Assembly: GCA_001770325.1 (NCBI GenBank) | Contig: MEQT01000241.1 | Location: 1-32,526 of the forward strand | Source: Betaproteobacteria bacterium RIFCSPLOWO2_02_64_14 | GTDB lineage: Bacteria > Pseudomonadota > Gammaproteobacteria > Burkholderiales > SG8-41 | DNA length: 32,526 bases | Reading direction: 5' to 3' | Part shown: positions 7,886-23,775 of the stretch, in pieces | Numbering within the stretch: position 1 is the stretch's first letter | How the letters are laid out: each line of letters opens with the position of its first letter | Made by a program: the position numbers and the translations under genes | The notes under the pieces: model-generated | Told to the model about the DNA's origin: nothing | Database searches by the model: none | Seen by the model: the letters and a program-made list of their open reading frames with translations, nothing else

Positions 7886-9310
7886 ATGAGAATCGTCATA
7901 CTGGGCGCGGGTCAGGTGGGCTCGTCGGTCGCCGAAAGTCTGGTGTCCGAAGCGAACGACATCACGGTCGTGGACACCAACCCGGACCGGCTGAAGACCC
8001 TCCAGGACCGCCTCGATCTGCGTACGGTCACCGGCAACGCCGCGCACCCCGCGATCCTTGAACAGGCTGGCGCCCGCGACGCCGACATGCTGCTCGCCGT
8101 CACGCAGAGCGACGAAACCAACATGGTCGCCTGCAAGCTGGGCGCGACCATGTTCAACATCCCCAGCAAGGTGGCACGCATACGCTCGGCCGACTACCTT
8201 TCGCATCCCGAAATCTTTGCGCCCGAAAACTTCGCAGTGGACCTTGCGATCTGCCCCGAGCAGGTCATCACCGACTACATCGCCAAGCTGCTCGAGTTTC
8301 CCGAGTCGCTCCAGGTCCTGGAGTTCGCCGGCGGACGCGTGAGCCTGGTCGCGGTGCGCGCCTTTCACGGCGGGCCGCTGGTGGGCCATGAACTGCAATA
8401 TTTGCGCCAGCACATGCCCCAGATTGACACGCGCGTGGCGGCGATTTTCCGCCAGGACAGCCCCATCATCCCGGAAGGCAACACCATCGTCGAAGCGGGT
8501 GACGAGGTCTTCTTTCTCGCCGCGACCGAAAACATCCGCGGCGTGATGCGTGAACTCAGACGCCAGGACAAACCCGTCAAGCGCGTCATGATCGGCGGCG
8601 GCGGCAACATCGGGCGGCGGCTCGCCACGGCGATCGAACACAAGTACGACGTGAAAATCATCGAGCGCAACAAGGCCGGCGCCGAGCGGCTCGCGGCCAC
8701 CCTCAGCCGCACGTTGGTACTCGCGGGTGATGTGACAGATGAGCAATTGCTTGAATCCGAGAACATCGGGGACATGGACGTATTCTGCGCGCTCACCAAC
8801 GACGATGAAAACAACATCATGTCGTCGCTGCTCGCGAAGCGCATGGGGGCGCGCAAGGTCATTGCGCTCATCAACCGCGGTTCCTATGTCAACCTGGTAC
8901 AGGCAGGCCAGATCGACATTGCCATCTCGCCGGCGCAGTCGACCATAGGCACCTTGCTCGCGCAGGTACGCCGCGGCGACTGCGTCGCCGTGCACAGCCT
9001 TCGCCGCGGCGCCGCCGAAGCGCTCGAACTCGTCGCGCACGGCGACGCAAAATCATCGAAGGTGGTGGGCCGGCGCGTCGACGAAATCGAAACTCCCAAA
9101 GGCGCCACCATTGCGGCGATCGTGCGGCGCCTGGGGCAGTGGCCAGCCGAAGGGGGAGACGGCCGAAGCGCCGGCGGTGGTGCGCAGGTCATCATCGCCC
9201 ACCACGACACGGTCATCGAACCGGACGATCACGTGATTGTCTTCGTCGTGAACAAGCGCATGGTGCCGAGAATCGAGAAACTGTTCCAGGTCAACATCGG
9301 TTTCATCTAA
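7886..9310 (+). CDS. trkA: Trk potassium uptake regulator TrkA
   Basis: MRIVILGAGQVGSSVAESL, two Rossmann/RCK units (second: RVMIGGGGNIGRRLA). Start re-set to 7886. Confidence 0.95.
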   Translation: MRIVILGAGQVGSSVAESLVSEANDITVVDTNPDRLKTLQDRLDLRTVTGNAAHPAILEQAGARDADMLLAVTQSDETNMVACKLGATMFNIPSKVARIRSADYLSHPEIFAPENFAVDLAICPEQVITDYIAKLLEFPESLQVLEFAGGRVSLVAVRAFHGGPLVGHELQYLRQHMPQIDTRVAAIFRQDSPIIPEGNTIVEAGDEVFFLAATENIRGVMRELRRQDKPVKRVMIGGGGNIGRRLATAIEHKYDVKIIERNKAGAERLAATLSRTLVLAGDVTDEQLLESENIGDMDVFCALTNDDENNIMSSLLAKRMGARKVIALINRGSYVNLVQAGQIDIAISPAQSTIGTLLAQVRRGDCVAVHSLRRGAAEALELVAHGDAKSSKVVGRRVDEIETPKGATIAAIVRRLGQWPAEGGDGRSAGGGAQVIIAHHDTVIEPDDHVIVFVVNKRMVPRIEKLFQVNIGFI

Positions 9311-15514: not shown

Positions 15515-17563
15515 ATGAATCCTTTGCTCGATTTTTCCGGTCTGCCGCGGTTCGCGGATTTCAAGCTGGAGTACGTCACGCCCGCGGTCGATCAACTGCT
15601 GGCGGATAACCGTTCGCTGTTGCAGCGCCTCGTGGCAGGCACCGAGCCTGCAACCTGGCAGAATCTGGTCGCGCCGCTCGAAGACGCCAACGAACGGCTG
15701 GGGCGCGCCTGGGGACAGGTGGGGCATCTCAACGCCGTGATGAACAGCCCGGCGCTGCGCGAAGTCTACAACGCCAATCTGCCGAAGATCACCCAGTACT
15801 ACACCGAACTCGGCCAGAACCAGCAACTGTTCGAGAAGTACAAGGTGCTCGCGGTATCCGCGGAGTTTCCCGGCCTTGACCGTGCGCAGCGCAAGATCAT
15901 TGAAAACGAACTGCGCGACTTCCGGCTGGGCGGCGCCGAGCTGCCGCCGGAGAGCAAGGCGCGGTTTCTCGCGATCCGCGAGCGGCTCTCGCAGCTTTCC
16001 TCGCGCTTCAGCGACAACCTGCTCGATGCTACCAACGCCTTCGCCCACTACGTCACCACCGAAGACGGGCTCGCCGGAATTCCCGACGACGTGAAGCAGG
16101 GCGCGCGCGAGGCCGCGCAGGCGGAGGGCAAGGCGGGCTGGAAGCTTACGCTGCACGCGCCGTCGTATCTGCCGGTCATGCAATATGCGGACGACCGTGC
16201 GTTGCGGGAACTCATGTACCGGGCGTACGTGACGCGCGCGTCCGAATTCGGTGCGCCCGAACAGGACAACACGGCACTCATCGTGGAGATCGTCAGGTTG
16301 CGCCGCGAGCTGGCGCGCCTGCTCGGTTTCGCGGATTACGCGGAGTATTCGCTCGAGCCCAAGATGGCCGAGTCCCCCGGGCAGGTATGCGATTTTCTGA
16401 ACGAACTCGCCGGCAGGGCGAAGCCATATGCGCAACGTGATCTCGACGAGCTGGCAGCCCATGCCGGGAGCGAGCTCGGGCTGCCGCGGCTCGAAGCATG
16501 GGATCTCGCCTATGCGTCGGAGAAGCTGCGCATTGCGCGCTACGCGTTCTCGGATCAGGAGGTCAAGCAGTATTTTCCGCAGACCACGGTGCTGCCGGGG
16601 ATGTTCCGCCTCGTCGAGACGCTCTATGGTTTGAAGATTGCGCCGGCAGAGGCGCCCACGTGGCATCCCGACGTGCGCTTCTACGCTATCCACGACCGTG
16701 ATGGCGCGCTGGTCGGCGAGTTCTATGCGGATCTCTATGCCCGCCCGTCGAAGCGCGGCGGCGCGTGGATGGACGATGCGATCACGCGGCGCCGCCGCGA
16801 CGCAGAGGTGCAGACGCCCGTTGCCTATCTCGTCTGCAATTTCTCCGCTCCCCTCGGCGGCAAATCCGCACAGTTCACCCACGACGAAGTGACCACGCTG
16901 TTCCATGAATTCGGCCATGGACTGCACCACCTGCTCACGCGCGTGGATTACCTCGGAGTATCGGGAATCAACGGCGTCGAGTGGGACGCGGTGGAGCTGC
17001 CCAGCCAGTTCATGGAGAACTTCTGCTGGGAGTGGGACGTGCTGGAGCCGATGACACGTCACGCCCAGACCGGCGCGCCGCTGCCCCGCGCCTTGTTCGA
17101 CAGGATGTACGCGGCCCGGAATTTTCAGAGCGGCATGCAGATGATGCGCCAGATCGAGTTCGCGCTATTCGACCTGCATCTGCACCACGATTTCGACCCC
17201 GAAAGCGGCAGGACACCGCTGCAACTGCTTGACGAGGTGCGCTCGCGCGTCGCGGTCGTGTTTCCGCCGGCCTACAACCGTTTCCCGAATAACTTCTCGC
17301 ATGTGTTCGCAGGCGGTTACGCGGCCGGATACTACAGCTACAAGTGGGCGGAGGTGCTCTCCGCGGACGCCTACAGCCTGTTCGAGGAAAACGGCGTGCT
17401 CGATCGTGCGACCGGTCAGCGTTTTCACGACGAGGTTCTGGGTGTGGGCGGAAGCCGCCCGGCGCTCGAGTCATTCGTCGCGTTCCGCGGTCGCGAACCC
17501 CGGATCGATGCCCTGCTAAGGCATAGCGGCATGAGCGGCGGAACAGGTGCCACGGCGCCCTAG
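15515..17563 (+). CDS. prlC: Oligopeptidase A (M3 metallopeptidase)
   Basis: FHEFGHGLHHLLTRVDY zinc motif (HEFGH), 682 aa, QFMENFCWEW. Confidence 0.94.
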   Translation: MNPLLDFSGLPRFADFKLEYVTPAVDQLLADNRSLLQRLVAGTEPATWQNLVAPLEDANERLGRAWGQVGHLNAVMNSPALREVYNANLPKITQYYTELGQNQQLFEKYKVLAVSAEFPGLDRAQRKIIENELRDFRLGGAELPPESKARFLAIRERLSQLSSRFSDNLLDATNAFAHYVTTEDGLAGIPDDVKQGAREAAQAEGKAGWKLTLHAPSYLPVMQYADDRALRELMYRAYVTRASEFGAPEQDNTALIVEIVRLRRELARLLGFADYAEYSLEPKMAESPGQVCDFLNELAGRAKPYAQRDLDELAAHAGSELGLPRLEAWDLAYASEKLRIARYAFSDQEVKQYFPQTTVLPGMFRLVETLYGLKIAPAEAPTWHPDVRFYAIHDRDGALVGEFYADLYARPSKRGGAWMDDAITRRRRDAEVQTPVAYLVCNFSAPLGGKSAQFTHDEVTTLFHEFGHGLHHLLTRVDYLGVSGINGVEWDAVELPSQFMENFCWEWDVLEPMTRHAQTGAPLPRALFDRMYAARNFQSGMQMMRQIEFALFDLHLHHDFDPESGRTPLQLLDEVRSRVAVVFPPAYNRFPNNFSHVFAGGYAAGYYSYKWAEVLSADAYSLFEENGVLDRATGQRFHDEVLGVGGSRPALESFVAFRGREPRIDALLRHSGMSGGTGATAP

Positions 17564-17733
17564 CGCCGGGGTGTGACCCGCAAATGACGCTGAGCTGCCG
17601 ACACGATCCCGGTAATCTCGCGACGCCCTGTCAGAGGCAGCGGCATGGCTGATGCGGCAGCCTGACGCAGCGCGCTTTGCATGTCCGTGACCAAAATGCT
17701 AGAGTGAAATCCGGTCGCTGCTGGAGTGACGCC

Positions 17734-18504
17734 ATGAAAAAAGCTCTGGTTCTGCAGCTCGCGTTATGGATACTGGCCGCCCCGCTGGGTGCGGCGCAGC
17801 TCTACCGCTGGGTCGATGAGAAGGGCAACGTGGAATGGCGCGACACTCCACCCCCGCCGACCGCGAAAAAGGTCGAGCAGCGCAAGGTCGGCGCCACGCC
17901 TCCACCCGGCGGCGAGCTGCCGTACAGCCTGCAACTCGCGGTCAAGAACTTTCCAGTGACGCTGTGGACCACCAGCTGCGGCGATGCGTGTGACAAGGCT
18001 CGCGCGCACCTCAGTCGGCGCGGCGTGCCCCACACCGAGAAGAACCCGCAGTCCGACTTCGAGACCTTCAAGAAGGTCACCGGTGGAAGCGAAGTTCCGG
18101 TGCTGTTCGTCGGCAACAACCGCGTCAAGGGCTATCTCGAACCGGATTGGGATGCGGCGCTCGATTTCGCGGGCTACCCCAAGACCGCGCTCGTCCAGGT
18201 GAAGCCCAAGCCGGCCCCCGACTCTCCCCAGAAACCGGCACCGGCGGAGGCGGGCCCGGTGCGGCTCTACACCAATACGCAATGCGGGCCGAATTGCGAC
18301 GAGGCGAGGAAACTCCTCGCCGGCCGCGGCATAGGATTCCAGGAGATTGCCGTGGAAACTCCACCGCAGATCGAGGACCTGCGCAAGCTCTCGGGGGACA
18401 CCTTCGTGCCGGTGCTGGTGTCGGGCCGCTTCGTGGTGCGCGGCTTCAGCCCCTCCGAATACAACCGGGCGCTGGACGAGTCGGGACATCGCCGCGAGCA
18501 ATAA
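17734..18504 (+). CDS. Exported DUF4124 protein with two tandem glutaredoxin-like domains
   Basis: Signal peptide MKKALVLQLALWILAAPLGAAQ, LYRWVDEKGNVEWRDTPPP (DUF4124), then VTLWTTSCGDACDKARAHLSRRGVP... and VRLYTNTQCGPNCDEARKLLAGRGI.... Confidence 0.85.
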   Translation: MKKALVLQLALWILAAPLGAAQLYRWVDEKGNVEWRDTPPPPTAKKVEQRKVGATPPPGGELPYSLQLAVKNFPVTLWTTSCGDACDKARAHLSRRGVPHTEKNPQSDFETFKKVTGGSEVPVLFVGNNRVKGYLEPDWDAALDFAGYPKTALVQVKPKPAPDSPQKPAPAEAGPVRLYTNTQCGPNCDEARKLLAGRGIGFQEIAVETPPQIEDLRKLSGDTFVPVLVSGRFVVRGFSPSEYNRALDESGHRREQ

Positions 18505-18658: not shown

Positions 18659-18682
18659 GTGAAGCTCGCGACCTGGAACGTC
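18659..18682 (+). pseudogene. 5' stub of xth left at the left end of the integrated element
   Basis: GTG AAG CTC GCG ACC TGG AAC GTC = VKLATWNV, the same opening as the full xth at 22975 (TTG AAA CTC GCG ACC TGG AAT GTG = MKLATWNV). Confidence 0.75.
18660..18681 (+). repeat. Putative attL core
   Basis: TGAAGCTCGCGACCTGGAACGT. Confidence 0.72.
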
Positions 18683-18805
18683 ATCACTATTCCAGCGGCA
18701 TCCGAAGAATTCCGGCGGTCTTAGAAACTCCTCCTAGCAGCGAAAAATTTTTCTAAATTTGTTCCGGCAGGATTGATCTTCTGCCGGCAGCAGCCGATAC
18801 TTCGT

Positions 18806-18826
18806 GTGTCCATCGCTGCGTCCATG
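18806..18826 (+). repeat. Putative left integrase arm site
   Basis: GTGTCCATCGCTGCGTCCATG, 19/21 identical to 22903-22923. Confidence 0.6.
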
Positions 18827-18873
18827 GCGCAGTTGATGTTCTTCCGCAAGAGCATGTACACACGGAGCGAGGC

Positions 18874-20102
18874 GTGAGCGCACTGACCGACACAACAATC
18901 CGAAACCTCAAACCGCGCGCGACAGCATATCAGGTCGCGGACGGCCGCGGACTCGTGCTCGAAGTACGTCCCACTGGGCAGAAGGCGTGGCTCTATCGCT
19001 ATCGCCTGTTCGGCCGCGTTGAAAAACTTTCCATCGGAACCTATTCCGATGTGTCGCTGGCCGAGGCGCGCGACCGGCATTTCGAGGCGCGCAAACTGGT
19101 CGCCGCCGGCAAGTCCCCGTCTCAGCTCAAGCAGGCAGAAAAGCATCGGCTCTCTGATGAGCTGCAAACGGTGCGCGGTCTGGCAAAGGCGTATATCGCC
19201 GATCACCTGGCGCCATTGGCTTCCGCGAGTCGCAGCCGCGACTATGTCGAGAACGAAGTCCTTCCGACTATCGGCGGCAAGTTCCTCCATGAGGTGACCC
19301 CGTCGGACTGCATTGCCATCGTCGAGTGCATCAAACAGCGTGGGGCGCCGTCAGTCGCGCGCAAGGTGCTGGAGCAGCTGCGCTCCCTGTTCGCCTACGC
19401 GGTGGATCGGTGTCTCATCACCATCAATCCTGCTGCGCAGGTGCGTGCCGCAAAAATCATCGGTGTGCAAACGTCCCGCAGCCGATTGCTCAGGGCCGAC
19501 GAGATTCGCCGATTCCTGACTGCCGCGGAGACCTTCCCTACGTCACAAAGCAATCGCATTGCGTTCAAGCTGATCCTGCTCACGCTTTGCCGGAAGGGAG
19601 AACTCGTCAAGGCCAGGTGGGAACACGTCGATTTCGACCGTGCCGAATGGCACATCCCGACCGTGAACGCGAAGAACCGGCAGGAGCACATGTCTATCTG
19701 TCACGGCAGGTGCGAGCACTTTTTGTTGAATTGAAAGGGCTTGCAGGCAAGAGCGACTGGGTGCTGCCGAGCCGCGATCCGGAACGCCACATCAGCGCCG
19801 CAACGCTGAACCAGGTCACGTTCGTCGCGAAGCGCCGGGATGAGAAGCTTGGCTGGCTGGCGGACATCTGGATACACGACATGCGCCGGACTGGTTCGAC
19901 ACACCTTCACGAGATGGGATGGCCCTCCGACGTGATCGAGAAGGCATTGAATCACACGATCGGCGGGGTTCGGGGTGTCTATAACAAGGCGCAATACGCG
20001 GATCAGCGGCGCGAGATGCTCCAAGCCTGGTCGGATGCCGTCGACCGCTACATGACCGCTCAGAGCACAGTCATTGCTGGGCGCTTCCCCGCTGCGGCAT
20101 AG
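18874..20102 (+). pseudogene. Tyrosine recombinase (P4-type integrase, DUF4102 N-domain), frameshifted near 19690-19692
   Basis: Frame 1 ends ...EWHIPTVNAKNRQEHMSICHGRCEHFLLN*; the -1 nt frame continues VYLSRQVRALFVELKGLAGKSDWVLPSR...WIHDMRRTGSTHLHEMGWPSDVIEKALNHTIGGVRGVYNKAQY, holding HxxR and the Tyr. Confidence 0.9.
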
Positions 20103-20113
20103 AACCGCCCGGG

Positions 20114-20338
20114 CTACGCTGGCTGCTGGCTGCCGTCGCGGGCGATCTTCACCCGTCCAGCAATCCACTCGCTGACATCTGACTCAAGCCAACCGACGGC
20201 GCGCGGGCCAAGCGGCACGGGCTTGGGAAACGCACCGTCCTTGACGTATTGATAGATCGTGCTGCGCGAAAGTCCCGTGCGTGCTTCGACCTGCTTCCGC
20301 CGAAGAATTGCGGGCTCGTGCTGGATGACCTGGGCCAT
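20114..20338 (-). CDS. AlpA-family DNA-binding protein (putative excisionase/regulator)
   Basis: MAQVIQHEPAILRRKQVEARTGLSRSTIYQYVKDGAFPKPVPLGPRAVGWLESDVSEWIAGRV; start re-set to 20338. Confidence 0.87.
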   Translation of the reverse strand: MAQVIQHEPAILRRKQVEARTGLSRSTIYQYVKDGAFPKPVPLGPRAVGWLESDVSEWIAGRVKIARDGSQQPA

Positions 20339-20834
20339 GTTCGTCACCTCGTGGCTAGTAATGGAAGGTGGCAAGATCGTTTCACGGCCGGAGAGAGTTG
20401 TCGGCCCGAATCGAGGCTTCGATGAGGCCCCGTAAACGCCTGACAGCCGCAAGGAATCGGAAGTGGCCCACGAATGCTCGCTACCGTCGCCCCTGTGAAC
20501 TTTCGGGTTATCCACGGTTCGATGCGTGCGCCCCCCTCTCTGGCAGGCACGGATCGGGCGGTGGGTAACCCGGCCTGACGGGAGGATTATTCGTTATTCG
20601 TCTAAAGGGCCGTATACAGAACGCGGCGAGCCTTGCAAGGCCGATTTGAGGCTTCGTCGAGGGCACGATTCCAGCTGCTGGAGGGAAAATAGGGGAGCAA
20701 TCGGCTTGATGGATTAACCGTTGTTCAGCGCGCGGAACCCAGGTACGATTCGCCGTCACCGGCGGCAGTCTCAATCACCGGAAGCACGGTCATCCGGTAC
20801 GCCACGATTCGGTCCTTTGTGGGGCGCTCCTGTC

Positions 20835-20858
20835 GATCAAAGTCATGATGCTTTGATC
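20835..20858. repeat. Perfect 8-bp hairpin downstream of darG
   Basis: GATCAAAG-TCATGATG-CTTTGATC; no U-tract. Confidence 0.5.
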
Positions 20859-20913
20859 ACAAATTAAACCGTGGGATACCCAATCTGGATATAAAGACGT
20901 TCTTAGCGCACGC

Positions 20914-22041
20914 CTATGCAGCGACGGCTTCTTCTTCCGGCAAAGGAAGATCGGGGCTTGCCTTCAGATTCAACCACCGCAGCATTCCCAAATCGCGGAT
21001 GGCGGAGCCAACGGTAACCTCGTCGAGCGGAGGGCGGCGCCTTTGCTTCCATTGCATAACCGCCTGCAGAACGTCCCGTTCGGAAGGTTGATCCTGGTTG
21101 TCCCGCGCCAGCTCGCGCGCGGCGAACAATACCGTGGCGATAACCTCTGCCTGGTTGGTGTCCACGCGCATGAACAAATCGACTACTTTGTCCAAGACTT
21201 TGGACCACCGTTCGAACGCCTGCTCGTACTTGTTACGAACGCGACTGAAGTTAGGGCCGACTTTCACCATAAACATTTTTCCATGTCGCTCTTCCTGCAG
21301 GAGGCCGCTATTGATGAGCTTAACTTCGACGTTCTTCAACTCCGCGGAGAACGGGCCAAAACTACTGCGCTTGTAGTTCAGGCCGGTCGGCAACCCGACG
21401 TCGGTCGCAACGTATGCGATCTTCTGGAAAATGACTCTCCCTATTGGCCAATGATAGGGGTGCTGCTCGATGCGATTGATGACTTCGACCAGCGCGACCC
21501 AGGATGGCTCAAGCGCCGTGGAGGCGCCGTTTCTCGTAGCCTGCTCTGCAGAGATCTCGCTGCCCTTTTCGACGAACTCGAGTGTCAACTCCCGGGGATT
21601 TGTACCGTAGGGAGCATACATCTCGACCGGAACGTTCATTTGCTTCGCATACCGGTAGATCAGCGGGCCGACAACGCGCCATTCCAATTGGCCGTTGCCG
21701 CAGCCGAGCGGCGGGATCGCCAGCGACTGCACGCCCCATTCCTGGTAGTGGGCCAGCAGATACTTGAGACCGCGATCAATATCGCTCACCTTCGATACCG
21801 ACTTCCAATGATCCTTCGTGGGGAAATTAATGATCTGCGGAGGTAGCAGCGATCGGTATATGAACGGCAGACCCGGCTTTACCTCGCCTCGCTTGCACCG
21901 GACGAGGTAGTCCTCATACATGTCAGGGAAGCGATTCTTGAACTCAAGGGCGATGCCCTTGCCCATGACCCCGACGCAATTGACCGTGTTGATCAGCGTC
22001 CGGGCCGTGGATTGCAGAATGTCGCCGACTAATATCTTCAT
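20914..22041 (-). CDS. darG: DarG-type antitoxin: macrodomain plus C-terminal domain
   Basis: MKILVGDILQSTARTLINTVNCVGVMGKGIALEFKNRFP, LAIPPLGCGNGQLEW; C-terminal HWPIGRVIFQKIAYVATDVGLPTGLNYKRSSFGPFSAEL. Adjacent to DarT. Start could also be 22050. Confidence 0.9.
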   Translation of the reverse strand: MKILVGDILQSTARTLINTVNCVGVMGKGIALEFKNRFPDMYEDYLVRCKRGEVKPGLPFIYRSLLPPQIINFPTKDHWKSVSKVSDIDRGLKYLLAHYQEWGVQSLAIPPLGCGNGQLEWRVVGPLIYRYAKQMNVPVEMYAPYGTNPRELTLEFVEKGSEISAEQATRNGASTALEPSWVALVEVINRIEQHPYHWPIGRVIFQKIAYVATDVGLPTGLNYKRSSFGPFSAELKNVEVKLINSGLLQEERHGKMFMVKVGPNFSRVRNKYEQAFERWSKVLDKVVDLFMRVDTNQAEVIATVLFAARELARDNQDQPSERDVLQAVMQWKQRRRPPLDEVTVGSAIRDLGMLRWLNLKASPDLPLPEEEAVAA

Positions 22042-22050
22042 CTGCAGCAC

Positions 22051-22641
22051 CTAGAAGAACATATCACTGCGCGTACGAACTGGCAATCCCGTATCGAGCT
22101 GTTGAAACGCCGAAAACGCGGTCTGATTCGCAACGTACGCCCCGATTACGAAATGGGCTTCCAAAGCGTCTGGAACCAATACCTCGGCGCACTTGAGAGC
22201 CTTATGTCGATCTTCTTCAATTCGGTCGTTTCGATGCAGCCAGAATTCTGCGTACAACCTGTCGCGATCTAACGCGACCAACCCTGTGCCGACATCGTAG
22301 AAGCGCACCGCCCCCCGGGCTGCGTTACGGTCAGTAACTATGACGCCCACTATATCCAACGCCGAAGAATCAACCCAGAGTACACAGATTTCGTTGTTCC
22401 TTGCCCGGCATTTGCTAAGCATGGGGTTGTGAGCGTCGAAATACAAGTTTGCATATTGGTGAAGGGGGCGGCCGCCGGGTATCTGTTTGTCCGCGCGTCT
22501 TTCCTGGATCTCCGGCATGGCGACCGAGTCGTGCGCAAGTTGTTCGGCCAAGGTGTGTGAAAGAATGCCGTGCCGCAGGATCGACGGCACGTTGGCGATC
22601 GCGGTGATGTAGTGCAGTTCCGTAACATCCGCGCGATTCAT
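22051..22641 (-). CDS. darT: DarT-type DNA ADP-ribosyltransferase toxin (DUF4433)
   Basis: ELHYITAIANVPSILRHGILSH, PLHQYANLYFDAHNPMLSK, CAEVLVPDALEAHFVIGAYV. Confidence 0.9.
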   Translation of the reverse strand: MNRADVTELHYITAIANVPSILRHGILSHTLAEQLAHDSVAMPEIQERRADKQIPGGRPLHQYANLYFDAHNPMLSKCRARNNEICVLWVDSSALDIVGVIVTDRNAARGAVRFYDVGTGLVALDRDRLYAEFWLHRNDRIEEDRHKALKCAEVLVPDALEAHFVIGAYVANQTAFSAFQQLDTGLPVRTRSDMFF

Positions 22642-22902
22642 TCGTCGTCATCGCCCCGTTATTGTCGTTGCCAAGCTGGTGTCCAATCTTGCCGTGAATG
22701 TGGTGAAAAGCGTTCCGCAGAATCGACGCCCTATTATGCTGCGGCCCGCCGCCACTATCCTACCGAACTGCATTCGGAGCAGGTGACGGCAGTCGGGCGC
22801 ACCCCGCCCGGTTCCACGCGGGCAACGTGAAGTCTGCCGTCTCGCTTAGAATTGCCCGATTGGCGTTGCCGGCAATCAATGAAGCGGCTGGGGCGAATCG
22901 CC

Positions 22903-22923
22903 GTGTCCATGGTTGCGTCCATG
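22903..22923 (+). repeat. Putative right integrase arm site
   Basis: GTGTCCATGGTTGCGTCCATG, 19/21 identical to 18806-18826. Confidence 0.6.
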
Positions 22924-22974
22924 AACTAGACTGAGACTTCCGAAGCCCATACAAATCAATATGTTGGATCAACA

Positions 22975-23775
22975 TTGAAACTCGCGACCTGGAATGTGAA
23001 CTCGCTCAAGGTGCGACTGCCCCAGGTGCTGGATTGGGTTGCCACGCACCAGCCCGATGTCCTGTGCCTGCAGGAAACAAAAGTCGAAGACGGGTCTTTC
23101 CCGCTCGAAGCGATCAATGGCGCCGGCTACCAGGCGCTCTACAGCGGTCAGAAAACCTACAACGGCGTCGCCGTTCTGAGCCGCACGCCGGCGCGCGACC
23201 CGGTCATGACGATGCCGGGACTGAACGACCCGCAGAAACGGATTCTTGCGGCGACGCTCGGCGAAGTGCGGGTGATCTGCGCGTACGTGCCCAATGGCGA
23301 AAGCGTGGCATCCGAGAAGTATCGCTACAAACTCGGCTGGCTGGAGGTCTTCGGATCATGGCTCACACATGAACTCTCGCGACACCCGCGGTTGGCGGTG
23401 CTGGGAGATTTCAACATCGCGCCAGAGGCCCGTGACGTTCATGATCCGGCGTTGTGGGAGGGAAAAGTTCTTTTCAGCGAGCCCGAACGCGAGGCGTTCT
23501 GCAGGCTTGCCGGAATGGGGCTTAAGGACGCGTTCCGGCTTTTCGAGCAACCGGAACGGTCGTTCACGTGGTGGGACTACAGAATGCAGGCTTTCCGCCG
23601 CAAAATGGGGCTGCGCATTGACCATATCCTGCTCTCGGATGAACTCGCGAAGGCATGCACCGCGTGCAGCATCGATATCGAACCGCGGCGCAATGAACGT
23701 CCCTCCGACCACGCACCCGTCATCGCCGAATTAAACCTCATAATTGATTCCGGTTCTTCCCGTATAGAAGCGTGA
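22975..23775 (+). CDS. xth: Exodeoxyribonuclease III (TTG start, 5' end apparently supplied by the element)
   Basis: MKLATWNVNSLKVRLPQVLDWVATHQPDVLCLQETKVED..., LGDFNIAPEARDVHDP, RIDHILLSDEL, PSDHAPVIAEL. Confidence 0.94.
   Translation: MKLATWNVNSLKVRLPQVLDWVATHQPDVLCLQETKVEDGSFPLEAINGAGYQALYSGQKTYNGVAVLSRTPARDPVMTMPGLNDPQKRILAATLGEVRVICAYVPNGESVASEKYRYKLGWLEVFGSWLTHELSRHPRLAVLGDFNIAPEARDVHDPALWEGKVLFSEPEREAFCRLAGMGLKDAFRLFEQPERSFTWWDYRMQAFRRKMGLRIDHILLSDELAKACTACSIDIEPRRNERPSDHAPVIAELNLIIDSGSSRIEA
22976..22997 (+). repeat. Putative attR core inside the xth start
   Basis: TGAAACTCGCGACCTGGAATGT. Confidence 0.72.

Follow-up and report, generated by a model that had tools for sequence, protein, structure and literature searches.

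An integrative element carrying DarTG inserted at the start of xth

The window analysed here is a stretch of 32,526 nucleotides from Betaproteobacteria bacterium RIFCSPLOWO2_02_64_14 in which the first codons of xth occur twice. The intact gene (22975..23775, + strand, Pfam Exo_endo_phos) is a 266-aa frame of the exonuclease III family that begins TTG AAA CTC GCG ACC TGG AAT GTG. An orphan xth start, or stub, lies upstream and reads GTG AAG CTC GCG ACC TGG AAC GTC. The two form a direct repeat (18660-18681 and 22976-22997) that is identical at 20/22 nt, far above chance. Elsewhere on the + strand of the window the best agreement with the xth start is 15/22 positions, and none of 30 simulated windows exceeded 16. 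The original prediction had noted the orphan start at 18659, the intact xth at 22975 and the replacement of a GTG start codon by TTG, and the two junctions read accordingly. attL (18659..18681, +) holds the host-derived left half with its GTG start, and attR (22975..22997, +) is the rebuilt xth start, with a TTG codon and leader from the element.

The open reading frames between the repeats encode an integrase, an AlpA-like protein, DarG and DarT. Pfam domains bear out the tyrosine integrase, AlpA-like protein and DarTG named in the original prediction, and PADLOC also recovers DarT and DarG. The integrase gene (18874..20102, +) is followed by an AlpA-like helix-turn-helix protein (20114..20515, -), a candidate excisionase; relatives of AlpA are known to act as recombination directionality factors (PMC10111431). 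The DarG antitoxin (macro domain, 378 aa; 20914..22050, -) adjoins DarT, a ssDNA thymidine ADP-ribosyltransferase of 196 aa (22051..22641, -). Both match their families over the full length, and the pair shows nothing notably different from the known DarTG toxin-antitoxin and anti-phage system. DarTG is the sole recognisable cargo. A Pfam scan of the element ORFs found no primase-type replication gene, so the element does not qualify as a PICI or P4-like satellite, and the same ORFs include no relaxase or conjugation genes, as an ICE or IME would. A tRNA target was ruled out, as the window contains 0 tRNA genes.

The ends of the element carry candidate protein-binding sites. The motif GTCCATNNNTGNGTCCATG occurs in the window solely at 18808-18826 and 22905-22923, and two copies were seen in 0/100 shuffles. 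The left copy, GTCCATCGCTGCGTCCATG (18808..18826, +), lies ~148 nt from the stub, and the right copy, GTCCATGGTTGCGTCCATG (22905..22923, +), has its TGTCC 71 nt upstream of where xth begins. The pair fits the left and right arm-type sites of an integrase. A perfect IHF consensus, AATCAATATGTTG (22954..22966, +), lies in attR adjoining its core and is the only one in the window, where 0.34 are expected by chance. From these positions we infer that the arm repeats and the IHF match are integrase and IHF binding sites.

The integrase gene itself is broken, a feature absent from the original prediction. Its coding sequence passes from the frame 18874-19734 into the C-terminal part of the frame 19326-20102, with the break near 19.70-19.73 kb. 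Arm-binding, core-binding and catalytic domains (PF13356, PF22022 and PF00589; Arm-DNA-bind_3, Phage_int_M and Phage_integrase) are all found across the frameshift, and this architecture suggests a P4-type integrase. The window copy is not an intact, potentially active gene as it reads. The source assembly is fragmented (304 contigs) and the frameshift could be an assembly error.

An uninterrupted site was found in a genome of the same genus (G003, locus L002). There the genes for an M3 peptidase and a glutaredoxin-like protein and xth follow one another without interruption, and the junction, ...GTC GTGAAGCTCGCGACCTGGAATGTGAACTCGCTC..., agrees letter for letter with the empty site that had been predicted. 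BLAST of L002 against the window gave a left piece that runs up to 18678 (888 bp, 97.7% identity) and a right piece that starts at 22976 (2297 bp, 97.8% identity). The two pieces overlap by 19 nt, so that window position 18678 is joined to 22976 in this cargo-less relative, exactly at the predicted bases. The overlap and the empty site indicate a 4316-bp insertion, a crossover in CTCGCGACCTGGAA and an attP with its own xth-like start. Site-specific insertion into the first codons of xth, as first proposed, is upheld by this comparison. The contiguous arrangement is also present in most other sampled family members.

Relatives of the window integrase are few. A scan of the genome collection matched only a Gallionellaceae MAG (L031) and Thiobacillus sp. 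UBA3361 (L032). The L031 integrase is 68% identical over its 181 residues, being cut by the contig end, and the stub ATGAAGATCGCCACCTGGGACATC lies ~250 nt before it. The L032 integrase (61% identical) is interrupted by an in-frame stop and apparently lacks part of its catalytic domain. In L032, xth lies ~4 kb beyond the integrase, and the stub and xth share a 26-nt repeat (24/26). TGTCC starts 150 nt from the stub in both L031 and L032, compared with 148 in the window. The L032 element carries a group II intron-type reverse transcriptase, a MarR-like protein and DUF2442, which makes DarTG a variable cargo. The reverse transcriptase (L032:9147-10640) has weak similarity to group II intron maturases. 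No further relative above 60% identity was found in 399 genomes of the order, 117 of the L031 family, 369 of the class or 74 of the window's own family, and none of at least 60% in plasmid and phage collections. No intact copy of the lineage was seen among the window, L031 and L032. With its frame broken and no intact copy seen, the window copy is probably stranded, or else mis-assembled. Barring an assembly error or help in trans from a second integrase, it probably cannot move.

Repeats similar to the right arm repeat were also seen at contig edges in two members of the same genus (L008:1-306 and L009:1-384), at -71 and -72 from xth compared with -71 in the window. The glutaredoxin gene is on a different contig in both, and a search of the two genomes for the stub did not find it. 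These repeats may be relics or parts of unassembled elements.

A search for other integrases beside xth uncovered a second lineage. A genome of the window's own family (G032, locus L087) has an intact 434-aa P4-type integrase that is only ~33% identical to that of the window. Its element is 2.59 kb long, lies between the glutaredoxin gene and xth, and is bounded by a perfect 23-bp repeat, ATGAAACTCGCCACCTGGAACGT. L087 is the only one of 78 oriented relatives with a P4-type integrase beside xth. The first stub pattern, which required that the second base of codon 9 not be A, was run over 399, 74 and 117 genomes. Because it misses true stubs (L031, L087), its near-zero counts there understate the frequency of occupied sites. 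One match to this pattern, in G140, was rejected, as it had no sign of an integrase and continues as another endonuclease-like frame.

Proviruses use the same site. A scan of IMG/VR with a DNA pattern of the xth start gave 3 contigs, and 3/3 have a P4-type integrase ~200 nt downstream. Seven proviruses (2630968739_000005, 2765235870_000001, 2582581007_000006, 2858914445_000001, 2860472259_000002, 3300039917_000042 and 2814123442_000001) have a relative of one of these integrases at one end and the host xth at the other. These proviruses are 42-58 kb long, and the contig stops 0-20 nt after xth. In the six cases where the sequence covers the integrase-side flank (L200, L209, L210, L211, L213, L221), a stub is present that ends in GCCACCTG and lies 217-224 nt upstream of the integrase match. 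Every stub found with downstream sequence is followed by a P4-type integrase, and neither of the two refuting results named in the original prediction appeared. Comparison of attL with attR of 2858914445_000001 suggests that crossover occurs within GCCACCTG, assuming that the host xth had the reading of the stub side. An integrase resembling this lineage (64%) also borders a prophage-like region in Ideonella dechloratans (L234; NZ_CP088082.1, 558500-607500), which contains diversity-generating retroelement genes and no annotated xth within the stretch read.

The phage integrase nearest to that of L211 (58.6%) belongs to Burkholderia phage BcepC6B (NC_005887). Beside int, the free phage genome reads ...GGCGAAGAGGATTTA ATG AAA ATC GCA ACT TG..., and over 101 aligned columns this attP shares 85-91% identity with the sequence surrounding the start of xth in the proviruses L228-L231. 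The phage thus carries the leader, the ribosome-binding-like AGAGGA and the ATG of the integrated xth. Like the window element, BcepC6B and its related proviruses have a P4-type integrase and an attP with an xth-like start beside int, and the proviruses end at the host xth. They differ in having a separate integrase lineage, other arm repeats and 40-80-kb phage genomes, compared with a 4.3-kb element.

Two trees were built to place the integrases. The first used the N-terminal 215-225 residues. It groups the window integrase with those of L031 and L032 (100/99) and places L087, L179 and L180 in another group (100/99) among other P4-type integrases; L192 in this tree repeats the L087 gene. The second tree, which also takes in the provirus integrases and that of BcepC6B, parts the lineages by a 100/100 branch. 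The second lineage then comprises 15 xth-associated rows and 7 without usable flanks, and the three-member first group has lower support (93/75). Integrases of G002, G003 and G004 with 32-34% identity lie outside both xth lineages. The start of xth is a real and recurrent attachment site used by two distantly related integrase families. On the tree topology, targeting of xth would either have arisen at least twice or be very old with losses in between. The integrative-element reading of the original prediction holds for the insertion, with the qualifications that the integrase copy is frameshifted and that the target is not private to the window element.

The junction lies in the 5' coding end of xth, and the element rebuilds the frame and the start codon. 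The frame is kept, with pN/pS of 0.19 relative to the empty-site gene, a value drawn from just 21 nucleotide differences. A consensus scan of the + strand at the right end of the window found no clear promoter for xth. Of 40 sampled relatives whose xth has an ATGA start, 13 have a long upstream frame that ends on the TGA overlapping the xth ATG. The glutaredoxin-like gene of L087 (7733-8326) has such a stop, with xth beginning at 8323. This overlap makes it probable that xth is translationally coupled there, and insertion can then cut the coupling. At dusA the element supplies a promoter, yet expression falls (PMC8409611). By analogy, expression of an occupied xth is most likely reduced but continued.

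These observations are almost certainly explained as a whole by a small integrative element that entered at the start of xth through a tyrosine-recombinase crossover. The attP of the 4316-bp element would have recombined with an attB formed by the first xth codons (K-L-A-T-W-N), at a point in CTCGCGACCTGGAA in the window that may be narrowed to GCCACCTG from the related proviruses. Because attP holds a copy of the xth start, recombination leaves a short dead stub at the integrase side (attL), while at the other side (attR) the leader and start codon of xth are replaced by new ones. The right end would supply expression signals for xth, AlpA would direct excision, and DarTG would serve as stabilising or defensive cargo. 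The frameshifted integrase of the window, the broken one of L032, the lack of a clear xth promoter in the scan of the right end and the fragmented source assembly count against this explanation. It is highly improbable that the stub has nothing to do with the integrase and arose instead by chance or by partial duplication of xth. Just ~22 nt are repeated, 2 bases differ, and near-equal repeats arise by chance upstream of xth in 1-2/78 relatives, but L002 has a single xth start joined to both flanks, and the duplication or chance reading was rejected on this empty site. P4-type integrases moreover adjoin stubs in unrelated hosts and in 3/3 of the IMG/VR contigs found by pattern.

What condition the insertion is now in is a separate matter. 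We put at slightly under even the chance that it is an old stranded remnant, with a dead integrase, kept solely by the cost of losing DarTG. DarT and DarG are intact while the integrase is frameshifted, the L032 integrase is degraded, and right-end arm repeats precede xth in L008 and L009, whose genomes yielded no stub. On the other hand attL and attR are still well matched, and a lone frameshift may be no more than an error of the fragmented assembly. With flanks only ~2% different from those of the empty-site relative, the insertion does not have to be an old one. Such a state is compatible with crossover at the xth start, as its present condition. We also wondered whether the element is a regulatory switch that interrupts xth expression until excision restores it, a form of regulated gene integrity. 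The lack of a strong promoter in the consensus scan of the right end, the weaker TTG start and the coupling that would be cut in some relatives point this way. The rebuilt frame and start codon and the pN/pS of 0.19 do not, nor do the ribosome-binding sequence and ATG in the BcepC6B attP, and replacement sequence in attP usually signals gene restoration (PMC10111431). A switch is very unlikely.

Insertion at xth is of the known 5'-end-replacement type described for dusA and prfC. In dusA-associated genomic islands (PMC4482086; IMEVchUSA3, PMC8409611), as in the window element, the target of a tyrosine integrase is the 5' end of a housekeeping gene, ~21-bp imperfect repeats mark both junctions, and the gene receives its new start and 5' end from the element. 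The target there is dusA rather than xth, and the integrases are described as Rci relatives; the Arm-DNA-bind_3 architecture of the window integrase suggests a P4-type enzyme. SXT/R391 ICEs insert in the 5' end of prfC, as cited in PMC8409611; going by that citation, the window element differs in its 4.3-kb size, lack of conjugation genes and target. The TIGER database places 43.4% of islands in protein-coding sequences (PMC12424338). No relevant paper naming xth or exonuclease III as an integration site was found in the open-access literature, the scope of this search as distinct from TIGER entries; the original prediction likewise knew of no described xth 5' target. Within that literature, the target gene xth and its use by two integrase lineages appear to be new, and the kind of insertion is already known.

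These results add a protein-gene attachment site common to small defence-carrying elements and full-size prophages. They yield an attP/attB rule for predicting the insertion sites of BcepC6B-type integrases, and integrases that are candidates for site-specific engineering. Whether prophages and defence elements alter base-excision repair by replacing the xth leader is testable. A broader proposal is that separate tyrosine-integrase lineages adopted the first xth codons as a general attachment site because the N-terminus of exonuclease III that they encode is nearly invariant, and that occupancy re-wires xth expression so that Burkholderiales phages and defence elements alter host base-excision repair. 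Taken together, the two halves of this proposal are speculative and rather doubtful.

The glutaredoxin-xth locus takes up other insertions as well. In L090, L102 and L108 an additional 2.6-5.4 kb separates xth from the glutaredoxin gene and contains no P4-type integrase; lacking an xth repeat, these gaps are not claimed as elements. A length difference of ~118 bp between the window (17515-17790) and L002, unrelated to the element, lies between the peptidase and glutaredoxin genes.
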